From Lentisphaera profundi (GTDB lineage Bacteria > Verrucomicrobiota > Lentisphaeria > Lentisphaerales > Lentisphaeraceae): DNA of 64,000 nucleotides. This document shows positions 15,074 through 58,256 of the stretch, piece by piece; position 1 is the stretch's first letter; the number at the start of each line of letters is the position of its first letter. The notes beneath the pieces were generated by a model that saw only the letters and a list, made by a program, of their open reading frames with translations, was not told the DNA's origin and ran no database searches. A program made the translations under genes and the position numbers. The stretch spans positions 1,488,001 to 1,552,000 of the forward strand of contig NZ_CP117812.1 of the NCBI RefSeq assembly GCF_028728065.1. The letters run 5' to 3'.

Positions 15074-15676
15074 ATGAGTACCGATTACAACACCAGAGAA
15101 ACTTTGTTGCAAAAACTTCAGAAGGCAGAAGATGAGCATTCTTGGGATGACTTTGTAAAGTACTACGAAGGCTATATTTACGTGGTAATCCGTAGTTTCG
15201 GGGTTGATATCAATACCAGTGAAGACCTGCTCCAGGACGTACTTATCAAAGTCTGGAAAGCCTTGCCAAAATTTGAATATCACAATGAAAAATGTCGCTT
15301 TCGCACTTGGTTATGTGTACTCATTCGCAATACCACATACAACTTCTTCAAATCAAAAGCTAATAGACAAAGCAATAGTAATGTCAGCTATGATGATCTC
15401 CTCAGTTCCCTTAATCTCATTTCTGAACCTGAGATTGATAAAATTGCTGAATTAGAATGGAAGAGCTACGTATCCAACCTCGCTTGGGAGAATGTAAAGG
15501 ATGGTTTTTCTGATGCCGCTCGCCAAGTTTTTGAATCATCCATCATCGGTGAATCCAACGATACTATAGCCGCAAAATTTAATATCCCTGAAAGTAGTGT
15601 GCGAGTCCATAGATCACGTATAAAAAAAGTTCTTATCAAGGAAATTGCTCGCCTCAACATAGAATTAGGCGGCTAA
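15074..15676 (+). CDS. ECF-type sigma factor (sigma B), partner of kinase B
   Basis: A 200-residue two-region sigma factor. Region 2 includes INTSEDLLQDVLIKVWKALP (about 43-62) and FRTWLCVLIRNTTYNFFKSK; region 4 ends with a helix-turn-helix around IAAKFNIPESSVRVHRSR. The acidic region 2.2 residues (SEDLLQD) are kept. An AGGAG ribosome site lies before the ATG. The kinase B gene starts 6 bases after its stop. It is the closest relative of sigma E (57654-58256): both end in LGG, and their kinases are also sister proteins. No anti-sigma gene is nearby. Confidence 0.92.
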   Translation: MSTDYNTRETLLQKLQKAEDEHSWDDFVKYYEGYIYVVIRSFGVDINTSEDLLQDVLIKVWKALPKFEYHNEKCRFRTWLCVLIRNTTYNFFKSKANRQSNSNVSYDDLLSSLNLISEPEIDKIAELEWKSYVSNLAWENVKDGFSDAARQVFESSIIGESNDTIAAKFNIPESSVRVHRSRIKKVLIKEIARLNIELGG

Positions 15677-15682
15677 AAAAAC

Positions 15683-17704
15683 ATGCCCAGAAAGGAAGAG
15701 CAATTTAACAAAAATCTCGCTTCATTTTTTGATGAAGTTAGTGATCTTGACGCCACTCCGCTAAGCGACATCATCCTCTCCAATAAAGAGCGGTATTATG
15801 ATTTCAACTTCTATTGTGAAGGCGGGCTCAAAAAAATCTACCGCTGCAAAGACCGCAAAACAGGCCGCGAAGTGGCCATGGCTTCCCTCAAGGATGAACT
15901 TAGCGATGCCCGCAAAGAATCTTTTTTTCGCGAGGCCCGCCTCAGTGCTTCTCTTCAGCATCCTAATATTGTTCCCGTTTACGATATCGGCATCAAAGAT
16001 GACTCTCCTTGGTTCACCATGAAATTCATTTCAGGTCAATCCCTTGACGAGCTTATTAAGCAAGAGCCTCCACTAAGTCAGAAACTAGATATTTTTATCA
16101 GAATTTGTGATGCCATCGCCTATGCTCATTCAAGGGGTATCATCCACCTCGATTTAAAACCTGACAATATTCGTATCAGTGAATACGGTAATGTTGTCGT
16201 CGTCGATTGGGGATTGGGACAAATCATGGCGTCAGACTGCGATGAAGAGCTCCTAGAGTGTTACTCTTTTAACTCCCATGACTTAGATACCATGACGGTT
16301 GATGGCAATATCAAGGGAACACCAGGTTATATGGCTCCTGAACAAACAAGCCTAATAAAAAATAAAAAAGCTCCCCATACAGATATTTTTTCTTTGGGCT
16401 GCATTCTTTACACCTTGCTTACAGCAAAGAAACCCTTCACAGGTAGTGACTTAAATGATGTCATTAAAAAAACGGCTGAATGCACCTTTGATGCTCCTTC
16501 TAAACGTCGACCAGAGCTCGAGATACCTGCCCCTCTAGAAGCCGTTTGCCTCAAAGCCATGTCCGCTAATCCAACTGATCGTTATCAAAGTGTGACCGAA
16601 CTTCAAAAAGAAATCCTCAAATACCGCGACGGTTTTGCGACCGCCGCAGAAAATGCCAGCCTATTAAAATTACTGCAACTCTGGTTTAGACGACACAAAT
16701 CTCTTTCTATCGTATCCATTCTTGCTCTTTTACTGAGTATGGCGGCTATTATTGCGGTCATGAATAACCTCAAGCTTGCGGAAATCAATGCGCTACAACT
16801 CGCTGAAAAATTGCGTATTGAAAAAGATTATGCTATCAAAATAAATAAAGAATCCGCTCCTCGTTTCTTAGCGCGGGCCGAGTATGCTTTCCGCATTTTT
16901 AACTTTGAGGACACCGCAAACTTTGCTGACAGTGCCGTTGAACTCGATCCCTCATTAAAAGATGCTTGGCGCCTCAAAGGTGAGTTACATTTCATTGCTC
17001 AGGAATTCAACTCCGCACTTGAAGCTTTCTCCAAAAGCAATGTCAACCCCGCGCTAATACAAGTCTGTAAAAAATACTCCCTGATAAAAAACAAAGATTC
17101 GGATCATCTGAAACTATCTCAGTATCTAGCGCTTTTCCAGGATTGTATCAAAGAAAAACTCAAAGCTCAAGTCGCGGGTCTGATGCATAAAATGGCTTAT
17201 TCTGATTTATCCATAGATGATCGAATTAATTTCTGCAAAGGAATTATTAGTGTCCACAACAAACTGATGACCATACACTTTAAATACGATAAACAGACAA
17301 AAACTCTTGATATGTCAAATAATCCAGAAATAATTACCGCCCTGGCTATTCAAAACTTTCCCTGTGAAATAGCTAACCTCTCCTATACCTCTATATCTAA
17401 TCTTATCTGCTTCAGAGCTCAACCCTTAGAAGAGCTCAATATTAGTAATACCAAAGTTGTAGAACTCCATAGTCTAGATAATAATGGGCTTCGCAAACTC
17501 AATATTTCGCATACTTCTATCCCTAATCTCACCCGTCTTCACGGCTCTCAAATTGAAGAACTCGACATAAGTCACACTAATGTTCAAAATCTGACTTTCG
17601 TTCCCGAAATGCCCAAACTAAAGCGTTTAACTGTCCACAAGGGTCAATTCCCAGAGAGTGAAATCTCTAGACTTCCAAAGACGATCAATTTAACGATAAA
17701 ATAG
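15683..17704 (+). CDS. Transmembrane Ser/Thr kinase with relocated lysine (kinase B)
   Basis: A 673-residue protein: cytoplasmic kinase domain (about 40-315), membrane segment (341-360) preceded by basic FRRHK, a short coiled coil (362-385), a TPR-like region (about 393-455) and LRR-like repeats (about 560-655, unit LEELNISNTKVVEL). Kinase residues: glycine loop CEGGLKK with Lys50, beta-3 VAMA (64-67) where alanine replaces the VAxK lysine, alpha-C Glu84, HLDLKPDN (155-162), DWG (175-177), GTPGYMAPE (212-220). Thus all catalytic residues are present but the lysine sits in the glycine loop, as in WNK kinases. It follows sigma B by 6 bases; the C-terminal part is predicted periplasmic and may sense a ligand or partner (inference). 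The convergent beta-galactosidase gene ends 48 bases away. Confidence 0.92.
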   Translation: MPRKEEQFNKNLASFFDEVSDLDATPLSDIILSNKERYYDFNFYCEGGLKKIYRCKDRKTGREVAMASLKDELSDARKESFFREARLSASLQHPNIVPVYDIGIKDDSPWFTMKFISGQSLDELIKQEPPLSQKLDIFIRICDAIAYAHSRGIIHLDLKPDNIRISEYGNVVVVDWGLGQIMASDCDEELLECYSFNSHDLDTMTVDGNIKGTPGYMAPEQTSLIKNKKAPHTDIFSLGCILYTLLTAKKPFTGSDLNDVIKKTAECTFDAPSKRRPELEIPAPLEAVCLKAMSANPTDRYQSVTELQKEILKYRDGFATAAENASLLKLLQLWFRRHKSLSIVSILALLLSMAAIIAVMNNLKLAEINALQLAEKLRIEKDYAIKINKESAPRFLARAEYAFRIFNFEDTANFADSAVELDPSLKDAWRLKGELHFIAQEFNSALEAFSKSNVNPALIQVCKKYSLIKNKDSDHLKLSQYLALFQDCIKEKLKAQVAGLMHKMAYSDLSIDDRINFCKGIISVHNKLMTIHFKYDKQTKTLDMSNNPEIITALAIQNFPCEIANLSYTSISNLICFRAQPLEELNISNTKVVELHSLDNNGLRKLNISHTSIPNLTRLHGSQIEELDISHTNVQNLTFVPEMPKLKRLTVHKGQFPESEISRLPKTINLTIK

Positions 17705-22701: not shown

Positions 22702-22945
22702 TCATCAGTTTCTCTGTGAGATATAATGTGCTCCACTAAAAGTGAACTGACTTCATTAGCTACAATTTCAAAATTGTCTTAGAAAGTTTTAAAATGAAAA
22801 TTTTGTTTAACACTTTAATTATTATCTAGTTTTCAAAGAGATTATTAGCTCTGATAAACTAGCATTAAGCATCGTCAAGTTTTACAATGATATATATTGG
22901 ACTGTGAATAAACTAATTGACTAAATATGAGTGCGAGATATAAGC

Positions 22946-23536
22946 GTGAGTAAGTGGAATACGAGATACACATTAATTCAAAGAGCCCAAAACTCCCCCG
23001 ATAACGATACCTGGGAAGAGTTTATCCAAGCTTACAGCAAATTCATTTATTATATGCTTCACCAAATGCAAGTGCCGAAATCACTCGTCGATGATTTAGC
23101 TCAGGAAATCATCCTGAATTTATGGTCTAAATTAAGTATGTATGCTAAAGAAAAAGGTAAATTCCGCTCTTGGTTAACTCGCGTAATCCGCAATAGTGCT
23201 ACTGACTCTCTAAAAAAAGAACAGCGCTATAACAAGCGTCAAGAAAATGCTAGTGAAGTTCTCGAACTCTTAGAAAGCATGTCAGAATCCGACTTTGAAC
23301 AAATCATTGACCGTGAATGGCGTGCTCACATGATTAAACTCACTCTTGATAGTTTGAGCGATCAACTATCGGAAACGGCTATTGAAGTCTTTAAATTGAG
23401 TATGGAGCAAGTCTCTACTGATGATATTGCCGAAAAAATGGATATAACTCCTGCTTCGGTCTATACCTTGAAAAATCGTGTAAAAGAAAAATTCACTCGC
23501 AGACTCAAACACTTTGTTGCGGAACTTGAGTTCTAA
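22946..23536 (+). CDS. ECF-type sigma factor (sigma C), partner of kinase C
   Basis: A 196-residue sigma factor of two regions: region 2 (LVDDLAQEIILNLWSKL and FRSWLTRVIRNSATDSLKK) and region 4 (IAEKMDITPASVYTLKNRVK). I choose the GTG at 22946 because the translation then begins MSKWNTR, matching sigma D exactly in position and total length (196), and GAGA lies 7 bases upstream; a GTG at 22931 would add five residues without support. An eight-codon open frame (22927-22953) overlaps this start. Kinase C begins 7 bases after the stop. Sister of sigma D. Confidence 0.88.
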   Translation: MSKWNTRYTLIQRAQNSPDNDTWEEFIQAYSKFIYYMLHQMQVPKSLVDDLAQEIILNLWSKLSMYAKEKGKFRSWLTRVIRNSATDSLKKEQRYNKRQENASEVLELLESMSESDFEQIIDREWRAHMIKLTLDSLSDQLSETAIEVFKLSMEQVSTDDIAEKMDITPASVYTLKNRVKEKFTRRLKHFVAELEF

Positions 23537-23543
23537 ATAAACT

Positions 23544-25586
23544 ATGACAAACATACTCAAAGGAGAAGACAGCCACAAGGATGACTTCGACCTGTCTTTG
23601 AATGATCTTTACGATCAGGTATTTACTGATGAAGTAGATACTCCAGATGAAAGTTCCTTCGATATTCTTAGTGCTCAAAAAGAACGCTATATAAAAGAAG
23701 AAGAAATCGGTCGTGGTGGCGCAAAAAAAATCATTAAAGTATTCGATACTCGCGCTCGTAGATACTTGGCTATGGCACTGCCTCACTCAAGTGAGCAAAA
23801 TGAGAAACTTAATGCTTTTATCCGTGAAGCTTGGATTACTGCACAATTAGATCACCCCAATATTATTAAAATTCACGAGGTCGGAGTCAATCCAGAGAAA
23901 CTTCCTTTTTTCACCATGGATTTGAAAAATGGTGATAGTTTAGAATTCATCCTTCGAAAACTCTATTCTGATGACCCTATATACCTAGAAAAATATCCTC
24001 TTATTAAACGCCTCGAGTTTTTTATTAAAATATGCGATGCTATTGCCTATGCTCACTCAGTCAACATACTTCACCTCGACTTAAAACCTGATAACATCCA
24101 GATAGGTGAGTACGGCGAAGTGATTGTCTGTGACTGGGGACTCGCAAAAATTGTAGGTGGTCGTAAATCTATTAACCTCCACCGTGACCTACTCGAACTC
24201 GATCTTGCGGAAAAGGAATCATCGCTAATCATGGGAACACCTGCTTATATGGCCCCTGAACAAGTTAAAGGCGATAAAACCAACACTTTAAGTGACGTCT
24301 ATGGCCTTGCTGCCATTCTCTACCATATCGTGACTTTAAATCCTAGCATTACTACAGATGATGCTAGTGAGGCAATGGCTCAAACCCTAAAAGGATCTAT
24401 TCCTTCCCCACACGAACTAGTTCCTGTTTCCGAAGGCTTATCTTCCATTATCATGAAAGGCTTAGCTCTAGAAGCAAGCGAACGCTACCCGTCTGTCATG
24501 GCGTTTAAAAATGATTTGTCCAAATATTTAGAGGGATATGTTACCAATGCGGAAGACTCCACATTTCTGAAGCAATGCGTATTTTTTTATCGTCGAAATA
24601 AAATGATTTGTCGTCAGGCCATACTTTTTCTCTTTCTTATTATTTCTATTACATTTTGGTTTGTTAATAGCCTACAGCAAAGCTGGAAATTAGAACAAGA
24701 AGCTCGAATCCAAGCAGAAGAAAATGCCTTCAAACAAAAACAAGCCCTCGATCTCTACATCAAAGAAAAAGAACAAGGGGCATTAGTTAAAAAAGACTTT
24801 TCAGGAGTTTTAGTCAAGCGGTATCAGATTTATAATAGTGAAGACTTTTCCAAAGACCCAGAAGCAATGCTACTTGGGTCTTTGAAAGGATATCGTTACG
24901 CTCTAGAGCAGAATCCAAATGATTCTCATATTGCGATGATGACGGCTTTAACATTATTCATTTTACAACGTTATGATGAAGCTCAAAAATTTAACGGTAA
25001 ACACAAACAACTTGAGCAGATTCAATTAGCCTTAAAAGCTGTTAATAAACACTCATACACCAAGGGTCAAAAAAATGTTCCAGTTACCGTTTTTGTTTCA
25101 GCCCTTAAAGGCTTGCGCGAATATGGACATACTAACCAAGCCACCGCTTACCGCGCCATTCTTTACGATATGAAGACACGAGATAATTTTGATGGCTACG
25201 AAAAAGTGGTTGAACAAGCTCTCATGTTATGGAACGATCGTTGGATTGAACCTGAGTTTCATTATGATAAAGAGACTCAATCATTGCATGTCCATGGTGA
25301 TAAGTTCAGTAATTTGGGAATGTATGATAAATTTGGCAGGCAAGCTCTTCTGCTAAAACCTCTAATCAAACACCTTGATGTGAGCAATAGCGAAGTAGAA
25401 GATCTCACCTACCTCTATGGTTCTCAAATCGAAAGTCTGAATATTAGTAATACTTACGTAAATGATCTAAGTCCACTACTAAAGCTTAACAAGCTTAGGC
25501 AATTAACGATTACAGAAAAACAGTTTAGCAAAGAAGAACTCGAACTACTCCCCTCAAAAATCAAAGTAATATATACAAAACAGTAA
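23544..25586 (+). CDS. Transmembrane Ser/Thr kinase with relocated lysine (kinase C)
   Basis: A 680-residue protein: kinase domain (about 50-330), one membrane segment (about 357-375), coiled coil (378-405), TPR-like segment (about 420-500) and a short LRR-like end (about 610-680, LNISNTYVNDLSPL). Key residues: IGRGGAKKI with Lys61 in the glycine loop, beta-3 YLAMAL (74-79, alanine replaces lysine), alpha-C Glu95, HLDLKPDN (177-184), DWG (197-199), GTPAYMAPEQ (231-240). The glycine-loop line is very like the WNK pattern GRGSFK. It follows sigma C by 7 bases; the alpha-galactosidase gene follows 295 bases later. Closest relative here is kinase D. Confidence 0.92.
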   Translation: MTNILKGEDSHKDDFDLSLNDLYDQVFTDEVDTPDESSFDILSAQKERYIKEEEIGRGGAKKIIKVFDTRARRYLAMALPHSSEQNEKLNAFIREAWITAQLDHPNIIKIHEVGVNPEKLPFFTMDLKNGDSLEFILRKLYSDDPIYLEKYPLIKRLEFFIKICDAIAYAHSVNILHLDLKPDNIQIGEYGEVIVCDWGLAKIVGGRKSINLHRDLLELDLAEKESSLIMGTPAYMAPEQVKGDKTNTLSDVYGLAAILYHIVTLNPSITTDDASEAMAQTLKGSIPSPHELVPVSEGLSSIIMKGLALEASERYPSVMAFKNDLSKYLEGYVTNAEDSTFLKQCVFFYRRNKMICRQAILFLFLIISITFWFVNSLQQSWKLEQEARIQAEENAFKQKQALDLYIKEKEQGALVKKDFSGVLVKRYQIYNSEDFSKDPEAMLLGSLKGYRYALEQNPNDSHIAMMTALTLFILQRYDEAQKFNGKHKQLEQIQLALKAVNKHSYTKGQKNVPVTVFVSALKGLREYGHTNQATAYRAILYDMKTRDNFDGYEKVVEQALMLWNDRWIEPEFHYDKETQSLHVHGDKFSNLGMYDKFGRQALLLKPLIKHLDVSNSEVEDLTYLYGSQIESLNISNTYVNDLSPLLKLNKLRQLTITEKQFSKEELELLPSKIKVIYTKQ

Positions 25587-28517: not shown

Positions 28518-29303
28518 ATGATTAAAGCATTAAAGACAAAAAGAAACTTCTCCCTCATCGAATTACTTGTGGTCATCGCCATTATTGGAATCCTCGCCTC
28601 CCTTCTTCTTCCTTCACTAGGAAAAGCTCGTGAAAAAGCTAAAATCTCCGTATGTACGAGTAACCTCAAACAAATTGGCTCAGCTAACTTTATGTATTTT
28701 GATGACAATGACAGTTATTTCCCAACAGTAGTTGGGAACGCAAGCTGGGACGATATGTTGGCGTCTTATGACGGTCGTAAACTTAGCAGTGCACAAATAG
28801 CAGTAGGAGGTGCCGGTGGTCATAATGTAGCAAACTTTGGGAAAAACTACGGTGAATTGTATCGCTGCCCCTTAGATGATCGTGTGAATGGAAATAGAAT
28901 TCTTAGAACGTATGCCCCCACTCAAGATGGTTGGAACTATAGCTTTAACCCAGGACAGAACGGTATTTATGGTGTAGAGGGGGTGGCATTTAACGGTATT
29001 CCCAAGAACATTAACGAGATTAACCAGATCTCTCGAGTCGCTGCCTATACTGAAAATCACTTCCCATTAAGCCATAACAACAATCAACTTAGAGTTTCAC
29101 TTGGACAAACTTGGGCCTTCAGTGGAATGCACGCGGGTTATTTTGAATTAAACGAAACGAAGCATTCAAATTTAAAATTTAACTTCCTCATGGCCGATGG
29201 ACATGTAACAAACATGAATCTGATTCAGTCACTCGTCACCAATGATGGCTCAGTTGCGGGAACTGCTAATGTTAGAGGCACCGTTTGGGACACGGATCGC
29301 TAA
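28518..29303 (+). CDS. DUF1559 prepilin-like protein
   Basis: A 261-residue pseudopilin-like protein. I place the start at 28518 because AAAGGAG precedes it by 6 bases and it puts the prepilin segment [15 protein letters not shown] at residues 9-23, as in relatives; an upstream ATG would add 16 residues. The position before the cleavage-site phenylalanine is asparagine, not the usual glycine. The C-terminal DUF1559 motif (His, ten residues, DGH) is present, and the protein ends VWDTDR, a tail type shared with the gene at 46892. It is followed by a pseudopilin relic and a large esterase gene. Confidence 0.9.
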
Positions 29304-29310
29304 ATCAATT

Positions 29311-29400
29311 TATACTCTCGAAATACACAACAAAATAAAAGTCAATCCCCTCTTAATTAACGGTCATGTAGAAAGTCACTCACCAACTTCCAAATTTGCT
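29311..29400 (+). pseudogene. Relic of a DUF1559 pseudopilin 3' end
   Basis: Bases 29311-29390 match 36551-36630, inside the intact pseudopilin gene at 35900, at 72 of 80 positions counted by eye. The encoded fragment reads YTLEIHNK...[12 protein letters not shown], whereas the intact gene has [12 protein letters not shown]. No upstream part of a second pseudopilin gene is present, so it is a truncated remnant left by recombination between paralogues. It lies between the complete pseudopilin and the esterase start at 29461. Confidence 0.85.
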
Positions 29401-29460
29401 TTCAAATCTTTCAAGTCTCAACTTATCAATTATTTAAATCATTCATTACGGATAAAATTT

Positions 29461-31482
29461 ATGTTTAAAACCTTTACTTCTCTAGCTATGCTCATCGCGC
29501 TCTCCGCAACTGCCGCAGATAGATCGAACGACACCCTGCCTCCTCTATCACCCGAAACTATGCCTGCAGATATTCCCGCTTTATGGGCAACTTTTGATTC
29601 CACTAAAGATCCTCTCGAAATGAAAGTTCTTCACGCATACGAAAAAGATGGTGTGAAAGTACAAATGATCTCTTATGTCGTCGGTACTTTCAAAGGCAAA
29701 AAAGTTCGTATGGGTGGCTATCTAGCTTACCCCACAAAAAATAAAGGTGCGCTTCCTGGTATTGTACAAATGCATGGTGGTGGTCAACGTGCCATGGCAG
29801 ACTACGCTGCTGGCATTGCTCAAAATGGTTATGCGGTTCTCGCAACTAACTGGGGTGGTAAACTCATGACTCATCAAGAAAAAGGTCAAGCCGCTGAAGG
29901 TAAGATTGCTACGGATTGGACACCCCTCGATGCCACACAAAAAAATAATGGCTGGTATGCGCGCACCGAGCCGAGCTCATTAAGCTACGACGATTTTGAT
30001 TCCCCTCGTAATAATAATTGGTTCCTCATTAACTTAGCCAATAAACGCGCCATCACCCTGCTACAAAAACTCCCCTTTGTCGATCCAGAAAAAATTGGCG
30101 CTCACGGTCATTCCATGGGTGGTAAACTCTCGGTCATGCTTGCGGGCACTGACAAGCGAGTCAAAGTTGCTGTACCATCCTGTGGTGGGACGGGCGCCGC
30201 ACCAGCAGCCCTCAAAGCGCGAAAAGGTAATTCTTCTCGTCCACAAGCACTCAAGCCTCTTTACGCCAAGTTCATCGACGATGCAAAAATGCTTCCTTAT
30301 ATCACTTGCCCGATCTTGTACAAAGGACCACAAAACGACTTCAATGGTATGGTTTCTAATATGGCCTTTAACTGGCGTACAATTCCAGCTAATACCTCCG
30401 TTCGTTATTCCATTAGTCCTCATTTTAATCACCGTCATGCTCCTGAATCTTCTTATGTTGATTTACTGATGTTTGAGCAGTACCTCAAAGGAACTTATAA
30501 AATTCCTGAGACGCCCGAAATTAAAGTTGATTTAAAAGGCGATGTAAATGGCCCCATCATCACTCTTAGTCCAGATAATTCACAAGCGATTGACCGCGTT
30601 GAAATTTTTTATAGCCAAGACCCCAATGGTCAATTTCGTTTTAATCGCTCCGCAAAGGTTCGCAAAGTCGGTAATAAATACCTGGCTTCCGCTCCCATCA
30701 TTTCTAAAGACCTAGGCTTTTTCGCCATGGCAAATGTTTATTACAAACATCCCAAAGGCCTAAAGCTTCTCGGTCCGCGATGGAATGCCAATCTCGCAAA
30801 CACTTTTATCATCAGTACTAATATTCAAAAATTTGAAATACCAGAAGTACAGCAAGCTAATCCCGCTATTACGGATAAGTCCACTCGAATGATTCAAGCT
30901 AACTTTGATCATGATGGTAAACCCGATTGGTATCGCTACTCGCAAAGCCGTCTCAACACACGCAAAATTCGTGATCCAAAATGGCGTGGTCCCATTGGAG
31001 CTAAACTCGCTATTGATGTCCTAGACCCCATCGGTGAAAACCTTATCATGGAATTTGACTTCAACAGTTATTCCCAATATGACCGTGAACTAGCCACAGG
31101 TCAATGCTACGTCGTAGTTCCTATCAAAGCCTCAAAGGAATGGCAAACTCTCGCGATAGATATAAAAGATCTCAAGCCTCTAAAAGGCAACCGCAATGGC
31201 ATGCCTCTCGACTGGCAAACTCTTGACCATCTCAGCATAGTCAATAATCTCAAGGCTCCCCTTGACGGCAAAATGCAGAACTTCCAGGCAAATGCAAAAC
31301 ATGGCCAGGGTCGAAAGCTTCGCAAGATGCAGTGGCTTGGCGGCAAATACCCGCAAACAATCCTCATGAATGGTGGTGGACTCGAACTCAGTGCTTCCGA
31401 GTACGAAAAACAATTTAACGATCAGATCGACGTCTCTATCGAGCTCGAAGAAAAAGTCGACGGCCTTGAAAAAGCAAAATAA
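29461..31482 (+). CDS. Secreted alpha/beta-hydrolase esterase with C-terminal beta domain (copy 1)
   Basis: A 673-residue protein with a signal peptide (MFKTFTSLAMLIALSATAA), an alpha/beta-hydrolase domain (about 40-350) and beta-rich regions to the end (about 360-670). Nucleophile Ser218 in GHSMGG; oxyanion-type HGGG in VQMHGGGQ; likely acid in CPILYKGPQNDF and His in SPHFNHRH. It resembles acetylxylan-esterase/dienelactone-hydrolase relatives and probably removes acyl groups from a glycan (inference). The true start is 29461: a longer frame only reads through the pseudopilin relic and lacks a signal peptide at its end. Paralogues lie at 37804 (frameshifted) and 51440. The tandem-SGNH gene begins 7 bases after it. 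Confidence 0.87.
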   Translation: MFKTFTSLAMLIALSATAADRSNDTLPPLSPETMPADIPALWATFDSTKDPLEMKVLHAYEKDGVKVQMISYVVGTFKGKKVRMGGYLAYPTKNKGALPGIVQMHGGGQRAMADYAAGIAQNGYAVLATNWGGKLMTHQEKGQAAEGKIATDWTPLDATQKNNGWYARTEPSSLSYDDFDSPRNNNWFLINLANKRAITLLQKLPFVDPEKIGAHGHSMGGKLSVMLAGTDKRVKVAVPSCGGTGAAPAALKARKGNSSRPQALKPLYAKFIDDAKMLPYITCPILYKGPQNDFNGMVSNMAFNWRTIPANTSVRYSISPHFNHRHAPESSYVDLLMFEQYLKGTYKIPETPEIKVDLKGDVNGPIITLSPDNSQAIDRVEIFYSQDPNGQFRFNRSAKVRKVGNKYLASAPIISKDLGFFAMANVYYKHPKGLKLLGPRWNANLANTFIISTNIQKFEIPEVQQANPAITDKSTRMIQANFDHDGKPDWYRYSQSRLNTRKIRDPKWRGPIGAKLAIDVLDPIGENLIMEFDFNSYSQYDRELATGQCYVVVPIKASKEWQTLAIDIKDLKPLKGNRNGMPLDWQTLDHLSIVNNLKAPLDGKMQNFQANAKHGQGRKLRKMQWLGGKYPQTILMNGGGLELSASEYEKQFNDQIDVSIELEEKVDGLEKAK

Positions 31483-33061: not shown

Positions 33062-33652
33062 TTGAGCAAGTGGAATACCAGACACACTTTAATTCAACGT
33101 GCCCAAAGCCAACGGGATAATGAAACCTGGGAAGAATTTGTACAAGCCTATGAAAAGTTCATTTTTTATATGCTTCATCAAATGAAAATCCCACAAGTCA
33201 TGATCGATGATTTAGCCCAAGAAATCCTACTCAATTTATGGACGAAAATTAATAACTACTCCAAAGAAAAAGGGAAGTTTCGTCCTTGGTTAACTCGAGT
33301 CATTCGTAACTCAACCAGTGATTTCATCAAAAAAGACCTGCGCTACAATAAACGTCAGGAAACACTATTTTCTCTGCAGCAGAACTTAGCTCAAGTAAGT
33401 GAAACAGATTTCGAAAAAATAATTGATCGCGAATGGCGTACTTATATGATAGAATTGACCCTCAATGATATTGAAGGGCAAGTTTCAAAAACGGCTATCG
33501 AAGTATTCAGACTTAGTATGAAAGAAGTTCCTGTAGAAAAAATCGCCGCGCAAATGAACATAAGTAAAAATTCTGTCTACACCCTAAAAAACCGCGTTAA
33601 AGATCAATTCACTTCTCGACTTCGTTATTATAGAAACGAATTGGAATTTTAA
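33062..33652 (+). CDS. ECF-type sigma factor (sigma D), partner of kinase D
   Basis: A 196-residue sigma factor with region 2 (VMIDDLAQEILLNLWTKI; FRPWLTRVIRNSTSDFIKK) and region 4 (IAAQMNISKNSVYTLKNRVK). The start is a TTG at 33062, supported by GAAGAGG 8 bases upstream and by alignment with sigma C (both begin MSKWNTR). A rare start codon suggests limited expression. A TTGTATCAA-type element lies upstream, and kinase D begins 14 bases after the stop. Sister of sigma C. Confidence 0.9.
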   Translation: MSKWNTRHTLIQRAQSQRDNETWEEFVQAYEKFIFYMLHQMKIPQVMIDDLAQEILLNLWTKINNYSKEKGKFRPWLTRVIRNSTSDFIKKDLRYNKRQETLFSLQQNLAQVSETDFEKIIDREWRTYMIELTLNDIEGQVSKTAIEVFRLSMKEVPVEKIAAQMNISKNSVYTLKNRVKDQFTSRLRYYRNELEF

Positions 33653-33666
33653 GGGAAATTGCATTC

Positions 33667-35697
33667 ATGAGTGATCTATTTAATCAAAATCATGCGTCCT
33701 CAAGTACTGACTTAGATAATTTAAACAAACTTTTCGATGAGGTCTACGATAATCCTTCTCATGAGCGATCGTCCTTAGAAATACTGCTTTCTCAGCAAGA
33801 GAGATACAGGGATATAGAAGAAATAGCGCATGGTGGCGCCAAAAGAATTTTTCAAGTCTTCGATAGTAAATCTAGGCGTTACATAGCCATGGCTGAGCCC
33901 ATCAACACAACAGATAATCATAATGTTGATTTATTTATTAGAGAGGCCTGGATTACCGCACAATTAGACCACCCAAACATTATAAAAATTCATGAAGTGG
34001 GAACAGATAGTCATCATAAGCCTTTCTTCACCATGGATTTAAAAAGTGGCGATAACTTGGATCAAATCATCAAAAAAATTAAGCAAAATGATCCCGGCTA
34101 TTTAACTCGCTTTACTCGTCCAGTTCTTTTAGATATCTTCATTAAAATATGTGATGCTGTAGCTTATGCACACTCAATTGGCATTCTTCATTTAGACCTC
34201 AAACCCGCCAACATCCAAATCGGTGAGTTTGGCGAAGTAATTGTCTGTGATTGGGGCTTAGCTACTATTGTCGGTGGCCGTTCATCTATTAATCCCCACC
34301 GCGACATCTTGGAGATCGACCTCATGGGTACTCCCACTAAATACCTCAAGGGAACTCCAGGATATATGTCTCCAGAACAGCTGATTGGCAAGAACGTCAC
34401 AGAGTTAAGCGATATTTACAGCCTATCCGCCATTCTTTATCAACTCATCACATTATTGCCTGCCATAACAGCTGAAACAAGCCATGAAGTCATGGACAAA
34501 ACTGCTAAGGGCGATATCCAACCACCCTCAGAGTTTGTTAAGATATCTGATGGTCTTGAAGCTATTATGTTGAAGGGACTTTCCTTAAACACAAAAGATA
34601 GATATCAATCTGTAATTGAACTCAAGAATGATCTAAGCAAATACCTCAGCGGTTATGTCACTCATGCAGAAGACTCTAACGTCTTTAAAGAACTGCTATT
34701 TTTTTACCTACGAAACAAAACCGTTTGCATTCAAGCCTTCATTTTTTTAGTTCTCATCATCGGCGGAAGCTTTATCTTCATCAATAACCTACAGGAAAGC
34801 TGGCAAGCTGAACAATTAGCTCGAGTCCAAGCTGAAGAAAATGCTAAAAAACATAAAGAAGCTCTCGACTTGTATCTCAAAGAAAAGAAAGATGGCTTCC
34901 TAGTCAAAAGACAATATAGCGAATCCCTTATTAAAGGCTCCCAGCTCTTTAATAGTGCTGACTATGTCAAGAATCCTCAGAAGATGCTCAATGAAGCATT
35001 AAAAGGTTTTTCTTATGAACTAGAACAAAAACCTAGAAATAAAAATGCTGAAATCATGATGGGTCTAAGCTTATTTATACTTCAGCGCTATGACGAAGCC
35101 CATAAATATCTCTACAAATACCAACAATTAAAACATATCGAGACCGCAGTTGAACACGCATTGAAATATAAATACGACAAGAAGCATAGATGTGCCCCTC
35201 TTCAGGTCTTTCATTCGGTAATTAAAGCTCTAAGAGAATATGGGGTCACAGCTCAAGCCACAGCCTTTCGTGCCGTTATTTATGATTTGCGTACTAGGGT
35301 AGATCGTGATGGTTACGAAATAATTACTGCTGAACTTTTTAGATTATGGAATCCTCGCTGGCAACAAGATCTTTATGAATACGATAAAAAGACTCAGTCG
35401 TTAAAAATTTCTGGCCATGGCTTTGAGTTCGTAAGTTTAAAAGACAAATTTGGGACACAGAGCTTACTCATAGTTCCATTCATTAAACATTTAGATATAA
35501 GTCACACCCATGTTAGCGATCTCCAACAACTAGAAAGTAGCTCTTTAGTTTCACTAAATATTTCAAATACTCTAGTAAAAGACCTCAAGGCTTTAAATAG
35601 TCTGCCATCTTTAACAAAACTCACTATCAGTCCCAAAGTATTTTCACAAGACATGCTCAATGAACTATCTACAAAAATCAAAATTACTGTTCAATAG
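33667..35697 (+). CDS. Transmembrane Ser/Thr kinase with relocated lysine (kinase D)
   Basis: A 676-residue protein: kinase domain (about 48-325), membrane segment (about 353-372), coiled coil (375-405), TPR-like region (about 420-495), LRR-like end (about 605-676; LDISHTHVSDLQQL). Key residues: IAHGGAKRI with Lys59, beta-3 YIAMAE (72-77, no lysine anywhere near), alpha-C Glu93, HLDLKPAN (175-182), DWG (195-197), GTPGYMSPEQ. With no lysine at or near beta-3, it is the clearest case of the relocated-lysine arrangement. It follows sigma D by 14 bases and is followed by a pseudopilin gene with a GTTKAGATC-type promoter candidate. Confidence 0.92.
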   Translation: MSDLFNQNHASSSTDLDNLNKLFDEVYDNPSHERSSLEILLSQQERYRDIEEIAHGGAKRIFQVFDSKSRRYIAMAEPINTTDNHNVDLFIREAWITAQLDHPNIIKIHEVGTDSHHKPFFTMDLKSGDNLDQIIKKIKQNDPGYLTRFTRPVLLDIFIKICDAVAYAHSIGILHLDLKPANIQIGEFGEVIVCDWGLATIVGGRSSINPHRDILEIDLMGTPTKYLKGTPGYMSPEQLIGKNVTELSDIYSLSAILYQLITLLPAITAETSHEVMDKTAKGDIQPPSEFVKISDGLEAIMLKGLSLNTKDRYQSVIELKNDLSKYLSGYVTHAEDSNVFKELLFFYLRNKTVCIQAFIFLVLIIGGSFIFINNLQESWQAEQLARVQAEENAKKHKEALDLYLKEKKDGFLVKRQYSESLIKGSQLFNSADYVKNPQKMLNEALKGFSYELEQKPRNKNAEIMMGLSLFILQRYDEAHKYLYKYQQLKHIETAVEHALKYKYDKKHRCAPLQVFHSVIKALREYGVTAQATAFRAVIYDLRTRVDRDGYEIITAELFRLWNPRWQQDLYEYDKKTQSLKISGHGFEFVSLKDKFGTQSLLIVPFIKHLDISHTHVSDLQQLESSSLVSLNISNTLVKDLKALNSLPSLTKLTISPKVFSQDMLNELSTKIKITVQ

Positions 35698-37803: not shown

Positions 37804-39761
37804 ATGAAAAAAATCATAAGTCTAATTCTCATAAACCTTTCTGTATTTGCCTCTCAGGAAGTTCAAGATTTCTGGAACCAGTACGATCCTCACAAAGCAC
37901 CACTCAACACCGAAATCATTAAAGAGTGGCAAGAAGGAGAAAATACTTATATGTTGCTACGTTATGACCTAGGACTACTCAAAGGAACTAATAAATCTGC
38001 TTCGCCCAAAATAGCCGCATATTATGGCTTCCCGACTCGTCTAAAAGGAAAATCCCCAGGTATTGTCCATATTCATGGAGGTGGACAAAAAGCCAGTCTA
38101 AGTCGCGTTAAATCTTGGACTGAACTCGGATATGCCGCAATCAGCATTAACTGGGGTGCAAAAGTTATTGATAAGCCCAATACTCCCAATACAGACTGGG
38201 ATGGTATTGCTGCGGGTTTTATTCGCCCGGGGATAACAATTGCCGATGATCTGGATCACCATAATACTATTAGCCCTGATAACAATACACTCTATAAAGA
38301 GTTTCATTTATTAAATAGTAGCTGGAACCTTATTGCGATGTCGGTAAGAAGAGCTCTCACTTTTCTCGAAAGTCGTCAAGAAGTAGATCCCCATAAATTA
38401 GGTATTGAAGGTCACTCTATGGGGGGAAATCCACTGTATTAAGCGCAATTGATCCGCGCGTTAAAGCAGCATCTCCTTCTGTGGGGGGCACAGGATTTCT
38501 TAATCAAGATTTATGGGGACTTTCCAATAGTAAACGCTCTATGAAAACAGATGATAATCTCAAGCTATACCAAAAAACTGTTTCTGCGCAATCCTACTGG
38601 CCCTACATCACTGCTCCCACGCTATTTCTAGGTGCAAGCAATGACTTCAATTCACCAACAGAACTAATTATAAAGAGCATGAACTTACTTCCTTCTAAAA
38701 CAACAAGTGCCTTAGCTTTAGCTCCCCACCTCAATCACAGGTTCACTACGGGAACTAATAATGCTCGCTTTTATTGGATGGAATCACATTTGAAAAATGA
38801 TTTTTTGTTTCCCGCAAACCCCAATGCCGAACTTAAACTCAACAATAAAAACAAGATCCCCTTTTTCTCTGTCACTCTCGACCCCAAATGTAAATACGAA
38901 GTAGATCAAGTAAAAATTTATTACGGCTTTTCCCGTGATCCTCGCATTCGTTTTTGGCGTACTGCTAAAGCACGTAAAAACAAAAACACCTACTCGGCTT
39001 TTCTCCACATTTATGACCAAAACGAACCTCTTTTTGCCTTTGCCAACGTCACTTACAAAACAGGTAAAACACTTCCAGCTAGACCTGGTGTCCCCACTAG
39101 TGACCTACTCACGCTCAGTTCTAATTATTTCTCAATTCACCCTGATGAGCTAAAAAAATCTGGTATTAAAAGCACTTCAAAAAACTATCGAACTCTTGAT
39201 GATTTCACCAAGGGCATGCAGGATTGGTACATATTGGGAGACAACAACCCTCAGCACTGGTTTATGTCCACTAGAAAAGTGATTGACCCCTCCTTTATGG
39301 GCCCTCAAAATGCCACGCTGAGAATCCAGCTTACTCAAGATACCCCAGGAAATTCAATTGCCATTGGTGTTAAAGTCAATACTTGGCAAGGTTACACAGG
39401 CAGGAAGCCGGATGAATATGTAAGTTTAGTCGATTTATCCAATAAAGGTAAAAACATCGTTTCCCTCAAAGTAGAAGACTTTATCAATAAGAAAGGGCAG
39501 CTGATGAAAAACTGGGATGAATTAACTGAGTTATACTTCACTCCTGCAAATAAAAAGAACCGCAAGTCAAAAAAATGGACTGGAAAAATGCCGAAATTAC
39601 ATAAAATCGAATGGCTAGGTGGACTCAATACAAAACTCCCTTATCCCCACGAAAAACGCAATAACTTAAACAGTAAAGGCAATATAAGTTTTGATGATCA
39701 ATTTCAGCAAGCCATCGACGATTCTGTACTCCTTGAAAAAAACGATAAAAATCTAAATTAG
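37804..39761 (+). pseudogene. Frameshifted GHSMGG esterase (copy 2)
   Basis: A paralogue of the esterases at 29461 and 51440, split by one frameshift. The first frame (37804-38442; signal peptide, alpha/beta-hydrolase fold, HIHGGGQ, nucleophile Ser205 in GHSMGG) ends 24 bases after that motif. The homologous continuation (VLSAIDPRVKAASPSVGG and the C-terminal beta domain, to 39761) is in the next frame. The join is at a run of six G (38421-38426): one more G would restore GHSMGGKS and the whole alignment. It is a real mutation, a phase-variable tract, or a sequencing error; the sequence cannot decide. It precedes the SGNH-sulfatase gene by 8 bases, as in the intact pair at 51440/53434. Confidence 0.85.
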
Positions 39762-51439: not shown

Positions 51440-53344
51440 ATGTCTTTTTTTAAATCAAGATCAAAAGCCACTCTACAGACCTTATTTATCTCTTGCTCAC
51501 TTCTAAGTTTCAATAGCCAAGCAGCCACTCCACTTCCCGAAACACTCGCTCCCCTCAATAATAAGCCCGCACCTCAAAGTTTTGACCAAATGTGGAAAGA
51601 TTTTGATCCTCGAAAAGAAGCACTCGAAGTGGAAGTCATTAAAGAATGGGAAGAAGATGGTGTTATCTTAAAAATCCTTCGCTACGACATCGGAATTTTC
51701 AAAGGACAAAAAGCCAAAATGGCCGCTGTTTATGGCTACCCAAAAGGAGCTAAGAACCTTCCGGGATTACTACAAATTCATGGTGGTGGCCAGTACGCAG
51801 ATCACCGTGCCGTACTCACTAATGCCAAACGCGGCTATGCTACTTTATCTATTGCTTGGGCGGGACGTATAAGTGCGCCAGATTACAAAGTTAGTCCCCA
51901 TGAAGTCAAACTCTTTTGGGATAAGAAAACTTCCGATCCCGATTATAAACTCACTACTGACTGGGGCGCCTTGGATGCTTATCATGCTCCAAGTAAACAT
52001 GGTAAAGATGCTTTCCCTTCTATCCCTACTGCCGATTGGACTTTAGATCCCATCGAATCACCTCGTAATAACTCTTGGTTCCTAATCACTCTCGCTGCTC
52101 GCCGAGGATTAACTTTTCTAGAAAAACAGCCTCAAGTCAATGGTGATAAGTTAGGCGTCTATGGTCATTCCATGGGTGGCAAACTCACGGTTGCGACTGC
52201 CGCAAGTGATTCACGTATCAAAGCTGCGGCCCCTTCCTGCGGTGGCATTAGCGACCGCTACAACGAAAAAGAACTGCATCGCAATACTGTGGGTGATTCA
52301 ACACAACTCAAGCAGATAAGTGCTCCCATAGTCTTTCTTAGTCCGTCGAATGATTTTCATGGTCACATCAATAATTTAGTTGACGCCGTAAAGGAAATCA
52401 AAACGGATCAATGGCGAGTCATTTGTTCACCTCACGGTAGCCATCAGGAAATCCCCTCTGCAGAAGTCGCAACTCAATTATGGTTTGATCAATACCTTAA
52501 AGGATCATTCACTTGGCCCAAAACCCCTGCAACTTCACTCAATTTAGTCAGTCCGTCAGGCAGCCCTACTCTCATTGTGACTCCCGACCAAAGTCGTACT
52601 ATAGAAGCCGTCGATGTCTATTACTGCCAACAAGGAGACTCCAGCGGTAATCGACAATTACGTTCAAATCGAATAAATCGCTTTTGGCACCATGCACCAG
52701 CGCATAAAAAGGAAAATCAATGGCAGGCTTCAATGCCGCTTTATTCCGTGGATAAACCACTATGGGTTTATGCCAACATTAGCTATAAATTAGATACTGC
52801 GGTGACCGCTGCGGGCTATTACTATGGAACTTACAAAACTGATACATTCATTGTCTCATCTTTAGTCAAACTAGTCACTCCTAAGGCCTTACAGAAGGCA
52901 AATTTAAAAGCACAACTTAAGCCGAGTACTATCATTGAAGACTTTGATACTGATTGGCATCAGGAATGGTTTAGCTATAAGCCTCAAACTTGGCCACGAA
53001 AAACTCATAAACTCTATCATCCTGCTTATCAAGCACCTAGCCCTGATGCGGGATTAAAGATTAGAGTCTTCTCGGAAAAAGATAACACCCTGCTTATTGG
53101 CATCGATAAATACGTAGCTGAACTCACCTTAAAAGCAGGCCAAGTCAACGAGTTTATCCTCAAGCATAGTGATTTTAAAAACTATGAGGAGCAAGCCCTC
53201 AACTCTTGGAAGGGAATTGCCGAGCTCAGACTCAGTGACGCCGAAATCCTACGCTCGAGTAAAAACCGTAGTAAGACTCGTCGCCTTGGCAAATCTTGGC
53301 AAGGTAGCGATCCTCAATTCAAAGAACTGACTTGGATTAAATAA
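51440..53344 (+). CDS. Secreted alpha/beta-hydrolase esterase with C-terminal beta domain (copy 3)
   Basis: A 634-residue intact paralogue of the esterases at 29461 and 37804. Signal peptide (about 1-28), hydrolase domain (about 45-370) with LQIHGGGQ and nucleophile Ser244 in GHSMGGK, APIVFLSPSNDF, SPHGSHQE, then a beta-rich C-terminal region. It probably deacylates a glycan outside the cytoplasm. AGGAA lies 7 bases before the start. It is followed by a perfect hairpin and the SGNH-sulfatase gene at 53434, repeating the 37804-39770 gene order. A near-match to the TTGTATCAA element (TTGTAGCAA at 51381, second box one base off spacing) lies upstream. Confidence 0.87.
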   Translation: MSFFKSRSKATLQTLFISCSLLSFNSQAATPLPETLAPLNNKPAPQSFDQMWKDFDPRKEALEVEVIKEWEEDGVILKILRYDIGIFKGQKAKMAAVYGYPKGAKNLPGLLQIHGGGQYADHRAVLTNAKRGYATLSIAWAGRISAPDYKVSPHEVKLFWDKKTSDPDYKLTTDWGALDAYHAPSKHGKDAFPSIPTADWTLDPIESPRNNSWFLITLAARRGLTFLEKQPQVNGDKLGVYGHSMGGKLTVATAASDSRIKAAAPSCGGISDRYNEKELHRNTVGDSTQLKQISAPIVFLSPSNDFHGHINNLVDAVKEIKTDQWRVICSPHGSHQEIPSAEVATQLWFDQYLKGSFTWPKTPATSLNLVSPSGSPTLIVTPDQSRTIEAVDVYYCQQGDSSGNRQLRSNRINRFWHHAPAHKKENQWQASMPLYSVDKPLWVYANISYKLDTAVTAAGYYYGTYKTDTFIVSSLVKLVTPKALQKANLKAQLKPSTIIEDFDTDWHQEWFSYKPQTWPRKTHKLYHPAYQAPSPDAGLKIRVFSEKDNTLLIGIDKYVAELTLKAGQVNEFILKHSDFKNYEEQALNSWKGIAELRLSDAEILRSSKNRSKTRRLGKSWQGSDPQFKELTWIK

Positions 53345-55577: not shown

Positions 55578-57641
55578 TTACGGTAGGATAATAATTTCAG
55601 TATTGGGAAGCCTTTTCTTAAGGTTTTCAAGCTTAAATTGTCCTTGGTGAATATACAGTTTTTCCAAATCCTCAAAACCAGTTAAATTCATGCTGGTACG
55701 CACTGCAGAATGACTTATATTTAGTGTCTTCAAAGACATATCTCTCAACTTATAAATATTCGCAATTGCTGTATGTGATATATTAAGATTTCTCAAATCA
55801 TAATTTTCCAAAGTATTTAATTCAATGATTTTGGTGTAACTCACATCCAGTGATTTCAATGGCTGATTACGAAAACAGATGAAATCTTTAATTTTAGTAT
55901 GGGACAAATCGGCTGATTGAGCTGGAAAACCCTGTAAAATTAGAGCTGATTGAATCCAATCATTATGGGAAACATCCAGATGTTTATTTTTTCGATCATA
56001 CTCAAAGTGAATTTTTTGATTTTTAACCTGACTTATGGCTAGTTTTTTATTATGAACAATAATCACACCCTTGCAAAACTCAATCCGCTTAGCAAGCGGC
56101 ATTTCTGAATACGCGGTGTAATGAACCAGCCCGCCAACGACTTTTGGCTGTTCGTTTTCCATCCCCTGCTTAAACAAAGCAAGAAATTGATCTAAAGACA
56201 ATGCTAAGACATCATCATCTTTGATTTTCTGAAATTGTTTTGCCAAGTCAAGTAATTCAGGTGCTTCTCCATTTTTTTCAAGTGCCTTAACCGCGGCATT
56301 GAACTCTTGGTAGATGATGTGTAAAAGTCCCTTCAAGCCCCACGCTTCTTTTAAACTCGGATCGAGTTCTACTGCACTATCACAAAAGTTCACCGCATCA
56401 TCAAAATTAAAGGAATTAAAGGCAATTTGAGCACGTTGATAAAAACGTGGGGCAGCATCTTTTCCCATTTTGACATGAAACTCTTTCTCAAGACTTAATT
56501 TTTCCGCACGTTGTATGGCATTAATTTTTTCAAGTTTCAAATTATTAATCATAAACCAAGCGGCAAAAATACTGATCAAAACAAGTAAGAGCGAGGCGAT
56601 ACTGATCGATCGATGGCGTTTCACCCATAAGCGCATTAACGTTAATAGAGACGCTTTTTCTGCGCTGGTCGCAAAACCATTGCGGTAACTTAAAATTTCT
56701 TTTTGTAACTCGACCACACTTGCATAACGTTCATTAGGATCTTTCGACATAGCTTTCAAGCATACCGCTTCCAAAGGCAAGGGAATACTAGTATCTATTT
56801 TTGTGGGTTTTATAAAATCACAGTCAAGCGTTTTCTTCATGATCAACTTAATAGCTGCACCGCTAAACGGTTTTTTGAACGTTAAAATTTTATACAAAAC
56901 ACAGCCTAAAGAGAAAACATCTGTGTAGACACCTTTTTTACTCTTGATCAGACCGGTTTGTTCAGGCGCCATATAGCCCGGCGTTCCTTTGATGAGGCCA
57001 TCTATCGTAACATTCGTCTCCTTAGGATTGAAAGCATAACAGTCCAGCAACTCTTCGTCGCAGATAGCGGCCATCACCTTTGCAAGGCCCCAATCACAGA
57101 GTAAAACATCACCATAATCACTTATTTGGATATTATCTGGCTTAAGATCCAAGTGAAGTACACCCCTAGAGTGGGCATAGGCTATTGCATCACAAACTTT
57201 AATGAACACATCTAAGCGATCACTTAAATCGACTAAATAATCTTTCTTATTATTTTTTAAATCACTTAAAATCTGTTCAAGCGAAGATCCCGATATGAAC
57301 TTCATGGTAAACCAAGGGTGACGGCCTTTTAAACCTAAGTCGTGCATAGGGATGATATTCGGGTGCTGTAAGGCTGCGGTCAGGCGTGCTTCTTTGAGAA
57401 AGGCTTCTTTTTGTTGGTCATTGGCATCATTTTTCAAACGAGCCATAGCAACCGTACGACCAGTCTTAAGGTCCTTACATGTTTGAATGACTTTTATTCC
57501 ACCTTCATCAACGTACTTAAACTCACAGTATCGAGTCTTAATTGACTCAATCATATCGAGTAGCGGCATTTCATCTAATTCATCTAGCTCATCATAAAAG
57601 CTTGCAAAATTTTTATCGAAACTCTCTTCTTCTCTATCCAT
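55578..57641 (-). CDS. Transmembrane Ser/Thr kinase with relocated lysine (kinase E)
   Basis: A 687-residue protein, sister of kinase B: kinase domain (about 40-330), membrane segment (about 350-370) after basic VKRHRS, coiled coil, TPR-like region (about 405-470) and LRR-like repeats (about 575-670; LDVSYTKIIEL). Key residues: VDEGGIKVI with Lys50, beta-3 VAMA (64-67, alanine for lysine), alpha-C Glu84, HLDLKPDN (163-170), DWG (183-185), GTPGYMAPE. The activation segment shares DEELLDCYAFN with kinase B. It follows sigma E by 12 bases and marks the right edge of the glycan-degradation region. Confidence 0.92.
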   Translation of the reverse strand: MDREEESFDKNFASFYDELDELDEMPLLDMIESIKTRYCEFKYVDEGGIKVIQTCKDLKTGRTVAMARLKNDANDQQKEAFLKEARLTAALQHPNIIPMHDLGLKGRHPWFTMKFISGSSLEQILSDLKNNKKDYLVDLSDRLDVFIKVCDAIAYAHSRGVLHLDLKPDNIQISDYGDVLLCDWGLAKVMAAICDEELLDCYAFNPKETNVTIDGLIKGTPGYMAPEQTGLIKSKKGVYTDVFSLGCVLYKILTFKKPFSGAAIKLIMKKTLDCDFIKPTKIDTSIPLPLEAVCLKAMSKDPNERYASVVELQKEILSYRNGFATSAEKASLLTLMRLWVKRHRSISIASLLLVLISIFAAWFMINNLKLEKINAIQRAEKLSLEKEFHVKMGKDAAPRFYQRAQIAFNSFNFDDAVNFCDSAVELDPSLKEAWGLKGLLHIIYQEFNAAVKALEKNGEAPELLDLAKQFQKIKDDDVLALSLDQFLALFKQGMENEQPKVVGGLVHYTAYSEMPLAKRIEFCKGVIIVHNKKLAISQVKNQKIHFEYDRKNKHLDVSHNDWIQSALILQGFPAQSADLSHTKIKDFICFRNQPLKSLDVSYTKIIELNTLENYDLRNLNISHTAIANIYKLRDMSLKTLNISHSAVRTSMNLTGFEDLEKLYIHQGQFKLENLKKRLPNTEIIILP

Positions 57642-57653
57642 AAGTGAGATTAA

Positions 57654-58256
57654 CTAGCCGCCAAGTTCTTGATTTAAACGTGATATTTCTCTGAGCAAAA
57701 CTTTTCTGACTCGCGATTTGTAGACGCGTACAGAACTGGCACTCATTTCAAATTTTTCACCAATAAGTTCATTATCCTCTTGCCCCATCGACATTTTAAA
57801 AATCTCGCGAGTCCTATCTGAAAATTCATCTTGCACATTTTTCCAAGCCATATTAGAAATATAGCTCTTCCATTCCAATTCCGCGATTCGATGAACTTCC
57901 GGTTCCGTGAACATATCTAATGAATGGAGTGTTTCATCATAGTCAATATTCTTGTTATCATTGCGAGTGGATTTCTTTTTGTAAAAATTATACACCGTAC
58001 TTTTTATAACTAAGCATAACCAAGTGCGAAAAGTACACTCGCCTTCACGATATTCATATTTAGGCAATGACTTCCAAACTTTAATCAGCACGTCTTGTAA
58101 CAAGTCTTCAGCAATTTGCTTATCAACCCCTAAACCTCGAATAACTACGTATATGTAGCCTTCATAATATTGCGCAAACTCATCCCAAGATTTCTCATCA
58201 TTCGAATCAATCAGCTTATACAAAAGTGTCTGCCGAGTAACTTGCTTATTATTCAT
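57654..58256 (-). CDS. ECF-type sigma factor (sigma E), partner of kinase E
   Basis: A 200-residue two-region sigma factor. Region 2: IAEDLLQDVLIKVWKSLP and FRTWLCLVIKSTVYNFYKKK; region 4: IGEKFEMSASSVRVYKSRVR. Its closest relative in the window is sigma B, with the same length and the same ISRLNQELGG-like end, and its kinase is likewise closest to kinase B. The pair is thus a duplicated module in inverse orientation about 40 kb away. No anti-sigma gene adjoins. Confidence 0.92.
   Translation of the reverse strand: MNNKQVTRQTLLYKLIDSNDEKSWDEFAQYYEGYIYVVIRGLGVDKQIAEDLLQDVLIKVWKSLPKYEYREGECTFRTWLCLVIKSTVYNFYKKKSTRNDNKNIDYDETLHSLDMFTEPEVHRIAELEWKSYISNMAWKNVQDEFSDRTREIFKMSMGQEDNELIGEKFEMSASSVRVYKSRVRKVLLREISRLNQELGG

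Follow-up and report, generated by a model that had tools for sequence, protein, structure and literature searches.

A frame break at the nucleophile motif of a predicted esterase in a Lentisphaera profundi genome with an interrupted mutL gene

The split esterase gene and its surroundings

The window analysed here is a stretch of 64,000 nucleotides from Lentisphaera profundi, and all positions given without a replicon label refer to it. It harbours an esterase gene which is distributed over two overlapping reading frames. The upstream ORF (37804-38442) comprises 212 amino acids and ends with GHSMGGNPLY*, while the -1 frame is open for 445 codons (38424-39761) and continues the protein of the upstream ORF. 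Direct reading of the window sequence places a run of six G at 38421-38426, followed by three A. The features referred to below are these:

37804-38442, + strand: upstream esterase piece with a signal-peptide-like start (judged by eye), the first half of the alpha/beta-hydrolase domain and the nucleophile Ser (Pfam AXE1, profile)
38416-38418, + strand: codon of the nucleophile Ser in GHSMGG (sequence; alignment column nearly invariant)
38421-38433, + strand: break interval, spanning G6A3 (38421-38429) and the bases that follow, with one base missing somewhere in it (profile switch-point scores)
38424-39761, + strand: downstream open frame of 445 codons with the remaining hydrolase domain and a long C-terminal region; single-lesion gene (homologue comparison)
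38483-38488, + strand: second G6 of the esterase gene, of the same tract length, in frame and undamaged (tract count)
38643-38645, + strand: codon of a conserved Asp (NDF), presumed catalytic (alignment; role suggested by the alpha/beta-hydrolase fold)
38736-38738, + strand: codon of a conserved His (NH), presumed catalytic (alignment; role likewise presumed)
29242-31482, + strand: intact paralogue 1, motif ATG GGT GGT AAA (sequence comparison)
51440-53344, + strand: intact paralogue 2, motif ATG GGT GGC AAA, structure predicted (sequence comparison, model)

In 21 homologues both ORF pieces match a single open frame and abut at the motif. In homologue L010, the match of the upstream piece stops at residue 221 (residue 208 of the piece) and that of the downstream piece begins at residue 224 (residue 3 of the piece). 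Against a profile of these 21 intact homologues the read-through of both frames scores 539 bits, while the pieces alone reach 187 and 339 bits. Together with the end of the upstream ORF and the length of the -1 frame, this bears out the first-pass annotation where it located a break of the esterase frame just after GHSMGG, at the six G. The score, however, is nearly flat when the point of frame switching is moved over 38421-38433 (539.2 to 537.6 bits), so the lost base need not have belonged to the G run. Both the G6A4 found in a homologue from the same genus (L016) and the G7A3 of another one (L128) are compatible with an open frame. Judged from the profile, the lost base thus lies somewhere within about 38421-38433, i.e. 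in either the G run or the A run, or directly behind them. The proposal that a seventh G would restore GHSMGGKS therefore stands as one reading among several.

The downstream frame itself has ordinary coding properties. It contains no stop, whereas the other two frames have 24 and 46, its codon usage lies at the 56th percentile of 232 genes, and its per-codon log-odds of 0.186 is close to the mean of the intact genes (0.178, n=232). It had previously been described as well conserved over about 430 codons; its 445 codons are indeed free of any further lesion, yet the identity to homologues is modest, with a best value of 34% for the downstream piece. All 34 judged homologues (21 and 13 in two comparisons) are open across the motif, including one with a variant motif (L026); L126, which is cut by a contig end, and L123, which has another motif within a frame of 640 codons, were excluded from these counts. 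A close orthologue of the broken esterase was found neither among 387 genomes sampled from the phylum nor in a contig scan, the best identity being 34%, and for this reason neither a dN/dS analysis nor dating by relatives is possible. Narrow literature searches listed no paper whose title concerns this esterase gene or genome.

Four paralogues are intact, two of them within the window and two outside it; they could compensate for the loss of the gene and might have allowed it to decay long ago. Such an old pseudogene is hardly probable, since no second lesion is present in 445 codons; at 2% neutral divergence, and assuming 0.08 indels per substitution, the chance of this would be 0.036. The undamaged downstream frame and the open motif of the 34 homologues instead agree with the earlier suggestion that the loss is either recent or an error of the assembly.

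With regard to the encoded protein, the upstream piece matches Pfam AXE1 (E 6.4e-05, 22.3 bits compared to a cut-off of 21), while the downstream piece yields no Pfam match; no NCBIfam match was obtained. A family profile of 23 rows finds 1ods and 1l7a, which are among its best matches, at E about 1e-10 besides other alpha/beta-hydrolases, its matches including cephalosporin C deacetylase and acetyl xylan esterases. The predicted structure of the intact paralogue at 51440-53344, which is of moderate quality (mean pLDDT 64), has 6agq, 7xmj, 3fcy and 1l7a as its first structure matches (TMt about 0.6, TMq about 0.3). With the CE7 acetyl xylan esterases and cephalosporin C deacetylase (1l7a, 1ods, 6agq), which provide the best fold matches in the PDB, the family shares the order of GxSxG, Asp and His. 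It differs from them in its low identity of about 15-18%, in the motif itself (GHSMGG as opposed to GGSQGG in CE7) and in a long extra C-terminal region. The gene is accordingly predicted to encode a secreted CE7-like alpha/beta-hydrolase with esterase activity, at best a distant relative of that family.

In the model of the paralogue, a strand (residues 233-242) and a helix (245-256) flank GHSMGG (242-247), which places the break at the nucleophile elbow. The Ser resides in the upstream piece while the conserved Asp (NDF) and His (NH) reside in the downstream piece. Since the break parts the Ser from the other two residues, neither product should be an active enzyme, and both would be expected to be inactive.

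The neighbours of the broken esterase are sulfatases, a ThuA-like protein and a SASA esterase, so that the locus is probably a cluster for polysaccharide use. Four pairs of a sigma-70-like protein (~200 aa) and a kinase-like protein (~675 aa) are found beside polysaccharide-use genes at 15074-17704, 22931-25586, 33062-35697 and 55578-58256; they are possibly local regulators, the pair at 33062-35697 being the one compared with Pfam. Just upstream of a paralogous esterase gene, a segment of 85 bp (29310-29394) is 91% identical to the tail of a DUF1559 prepilin gene at 35900 and is likely to be a remnant of recombination between modules.

The homopolymer at the break

The first-pass annotation had offered for consideration that the tract switches the enzyme on and off by slipped-strand mispairing. 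The enzyme is predicted to be secreted, a reversible change in tract length is possible (the more so without MutL), and switching of this kind in mutators is proposed in PMC4702332. The tract, however, is no longer than G6A3, and its G run is dictated by the codons, as ATG GGG GGN always gives at least six G. Among 33 distinct intact homologues in which the motif was located by a search expression, seven carry G6 or G7 at this place and none of the seven is broken. The paralogues in the window use GGT or GGC in place of GGG. The run of six G is therefore a matter of codon choice. The repeats sought near a frame break in PMC3711429, as described there, were of 7 nt or more.

The wider sequence gives a similar picture. 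G6 is not enriched in the window (three runs as compared to about ten expected by chance). The 464 kb which end with the window contain 41 G/C tracts at least 6 bases long, and 30 of these fall well within ORFs of no fewer than 200 aa. Runs of at least eight G are rare, the whole genome having 16 distinct tracts. Four of these 16 were inspected, and the longest two, G12 and G10, are not spanned by any open frame of at least 80 codons. Nothing shows selection for switching of the esterase, and as an evolved feature of this short and unconserved tract the switch is unsupported and highly improbable.

Two further tracts deserve mention. The longest G run of the genome, at G000:C1:1784033-1784044, consists of T10 followed by G12 and lies outside any open frame of at least 80 codons. 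The other tract belongs to a protein of 1,501 aa (L043:6068-10570 = G000:C2:1274068-1278570), which carries DUF6797, cytochrome c and laminin-G-like domains; its gene has A10 at a site where the two sister genomes carry A9 and A10 and are out of frame (G005:C1 about 661075; G004:C2 about 6000). For slippage or switching, this A10 is a stronger candidate than the esterase.

The full-length enzyme could also be produced from the sequence as it stands, by programmed -1 ribosomal frameshifting or transcriptional slippage, which are reviewed in general terms in PMC5009743. Two overlapping heptamers, G GGG GGA and G GGA AAT (38421-38430), fit the slippery pattern X XXY YYZ, and a -1 shift at either of them restores the full protein. 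Yet these heptamers would remain after any loss of one base at this place and are therefore not independent evidence for recoding. None of four predicted folds is significant, the three downstream having z of -0.92, -0.44 and -0.72 and the one across the site 1.09; a Shine-Dalgarno-like pairing is equalled in 17% of random coding stretches and is thus ordinary, and the break is absent from all 34 judged homologues. As reported in PMC4066793, the related G_GG.G_GG.U was the lowest of all constructs in E. coli. We regard this as the least probable of the explanations considered.

The interrupted mutL gene

The most useful result of this study, although it lies outside the coordinates of the esterase, is that the only mutL of the genome (G000:C2 about 2378672-2382210; L200:115-3258, L201) is split by an insertion sequence (IS). 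MutL_C and DNA_mis_repair each find one match in the genome. The protein reads to residue 546 and then runs, within the C-terminal domain, into an IS encoding a DDE transposase; MutL_C is matched to position 87 of 142, and the frame comprises 560 codons as compared to 639 and 657 in the two sister species, in both of which mutL is whole. After about 1.6 kb the last 99 MutL codons resume in an open frame, and this downstream region is 74% identical to that of G005 over 102 residues. Neither part of the gene is decayed. TAGCTG is present at both ends of the IS, a repeat as expected of a target duplication. MutS is encoded by an open frame of 837 codons, the same as in G004.

Another copy matches the IS within mutL with 100% identity over 1,510 bp. 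The genome holds 13 full copies, 11 of which (including the one in mutL) are identical over 1,461 bp, while one has C5 in place of C6 and one is at 99%. As nearly all copies are identical, the insertion into mutL is held to be young. Over the 1,461 bp, the twelve young copies show zero substitutions and a single loss, in a C6. The copy concerned (G000:C2:275910-277369), whose transposase is broken, can serve as an internal measure of either slippage or assembly error.

From the state of mutL we conclude that mismatch repair is probably off in this lineage. Interruption of mutL by a mobile element is known from Streptococcus pyogenes, where SpyCIM1 interrupts mutL expression and produces a mutator (PMC4689407). 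The element is disruptive both there and here, but SpyCIM1 is described as an island at the 5'-end which leaves and returns with growth phase, whereas the present IS is inserted within the C-terminal domain. The first-pass annotation could not have known of the split gene, by virtue of which slippage would have a cause and would be reversible.

Frame breaks elsewhere in the genome and the origin of the lesion

Frame breaks were sought in 1.264 Mb, i.e. the 464 kb which end with the window and two stretches of 400 kb each, one around rpoB and one around alaS, by comparison with proteins from pieces of two sister genomes (G004, G005), from one family relative and from own paralogues. The core sequence that sister proteins covered near rpoB and alaS was small in amount. 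Nine breaks were kept, the esterase and the following eight:

C2, about 1148320: GDSL/esterase; A10, gain of one or loss of two
C2, about 1238360 (L041:10079-10677): sigma-70 factor, regions 2 and 4 in different frames; A7
C2, about 1332480: LacI regulator; T6
C2, about 277060: IS transposase copy; C5 where sister copies have C6
C2, about 494370: sulfatase; place uncertain
C1, about 2528578: sulfatase; A5
C1, about 2584290: DUF7133/cytochrome c protein; C7
C1, about 2668140: DDE transposase; 5-nt duplication and a second lesion

Eight of the nine are single lesions, and seven of these lie at runs of 5-10 (A10, T6, A7, A5, C7, C5 and G6A3). Likewise, seven of the eight are -1 shifts, that is losses. 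Six of the nine breaks are situated within 12 nt of a run (A/T of 6 or more, G/C of 5 or more), compared to a base rate of 9.8% (P 6e-05). With the esterase counted as a G-run event, three of 94 G/C runs at least 6 bases long are hit as opposed to three of 3,619 such A/T runs (P 3e-04). Internal stops in the eight single-lesion genes are confined to overhangs at the break itself.

A first tally, which had eight breaks at homopolymers (P 7e-08), was superseded when re-location moved one sulfatase break to A5 and left the place of the other uncertain; for this reason the seven of eight at runs and the six of nine in the proximity test are used here. Three candidates in the 464-kb piece and around the C1 sulfatase were dropped: a repeat of low complexity at 333170 of the 464-kb piece, a weak match at 460052 which spans two adjacent genes and, in the C1 sulfatase, a second, weak call at 128709.

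Since mutL is split and mismatch repair probably off, a fresh slip is our first choice, to which we assign not quite an even chance: one base would have been lost from GGGGGGAAA at the nucleophile elbow and the loss left unrepaired. The IS would have inactivated the only MutL of the lineage; polymerase slippage in GGGGGGAAA would then have dropped a base, which would be truly missing in the cells and lost later than the insertion into mutL. A second slip could revert the esterase at mutator rates. Close behind follows an error of sequencing or assembly at a homopolymer, in which case the gene would be whole in the organism and the base absent from the record alone; we hold this to be a serious, somewhat less probable alternative.

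The clustering of the breaks at homopolymers, the higher number of hits per G/C tract and the otherwise fresh state of the genes speak for slippage. They resemble what is reported for lines lacking mismatch repair, i.e. single-base homopolymer events which hit short G/C runs most per tract and leave the genes otherwise undamaged. In repair-deficient P. aeruginosa all of 108 indels fell into single-base runs, most often of 6 bp and to 96% of G:C (PMC4702332), and in V. fischeri and V. cholerae single-base indels become 473- and 334-fold more frequent once mutS is lost (PMC5854121). In E. coli the frame-restoring rate of a homopolymer reporter rises 119-fold upon loss of mutS (PMC3306285), and a marine Pseudoalteromonas deleted for mutS is also described as having acquired single-G frameshifts (PMC10634453). 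Coding homopolymers of repair-deficient tumours drift in and out of frame in a similar manner (PMC11250277). There, however, the repair genes are switched and reversion was seen, neither of which is shown here; the P. aeruginosa and Vibrio lines were followed in culture, while the present case is deduced from one assembled genome.

Error would, on the other hand, predict the same clustering at homopolymers. Eight single lesions in otherwise well-conserved genes, mostly at homopolymers and with seven losses, are in keeping with it: long-read deletion errors are reported to be tied to homopolymers of 2-8 nt (PMC12007338), and lone frame breaks supported by homology are, according to PMC3711429, expected to be sequencing errors and not genuine indels. 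The bias towards losses suits error as well, whereas in the deficient P. aeruginosa lines insertions were 3.3 times commoner than losses (PMC4702332). A mutator should furthermore leave substitutions, of which the twelve IS copies have none.

Nor is the density of breaks clearly above that of the sisters with a whole mutL. Per covered Mb it amounts to 15.1 here (8 breaks, one of uncertain place), while G005 has 4.8 (p 0.11) and G004 has 15.8 (p 0.65). Of the five breaks of G004 some are doubtful; the sister breaks were taken as first located, and three more G004 clusters without a nearby run were left out of the homopolymer count. The similar density in G004, whose mutL is whole, thus adds to the case for error. 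Against error it has to be held that 40 of the 41 G/C tracts counted in the 464 kb (6 bases or longer) are without a detected break, that a C6 common to the other young IS copies is altered in one of the twelve, that genuine decay is present too (the transposase with the 5-nt duplication and the second lesion, and the sulfatase fragment described below) and that the split mutL offers a biological cause. It is this mixture of fit and misfit with a mutator, with error accounting for the same clustering and for the loss bias, which leads us to rank the two explanations as we do.

If the loss is real, the esterase is one of the scars by which a natural mutator can be recognised among bacteria that degrade polysaccharides, and the condition of mutS and mutL should be considered whenever a frame break in a short run is to be called a phase switch or a pseudogene. 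If it is an error, about 15 such breaks per Mb compared would mean that the intact enzymes of this genome are undercounted. A more far-reaching version of the fresh slip, to which we grant a slim chance, would have a burst of the IS disable mismatch repair and slippage toggle many polysaccharide-use genes (sulfatases, esterases, the sigma factor, the LacI regulator) at homopolymers that are short and ordinary; the cells would then differ from one another in their degradative repertoires, a mixture which could be reset if the IS leaves mutL.

Sites of nonsense lesions number three in the 464-kb piece, three in G005 and seven in the G004 pieces, all of these being small counts. One of the three in the 464-kb piece resembles a real decayed gene: at G000:C2 about 1137672 (464-kb piece, 49672) lies a sulfatase fragment with an in-frame stop and with parts missing, which is probably a genuinely decayed copy.
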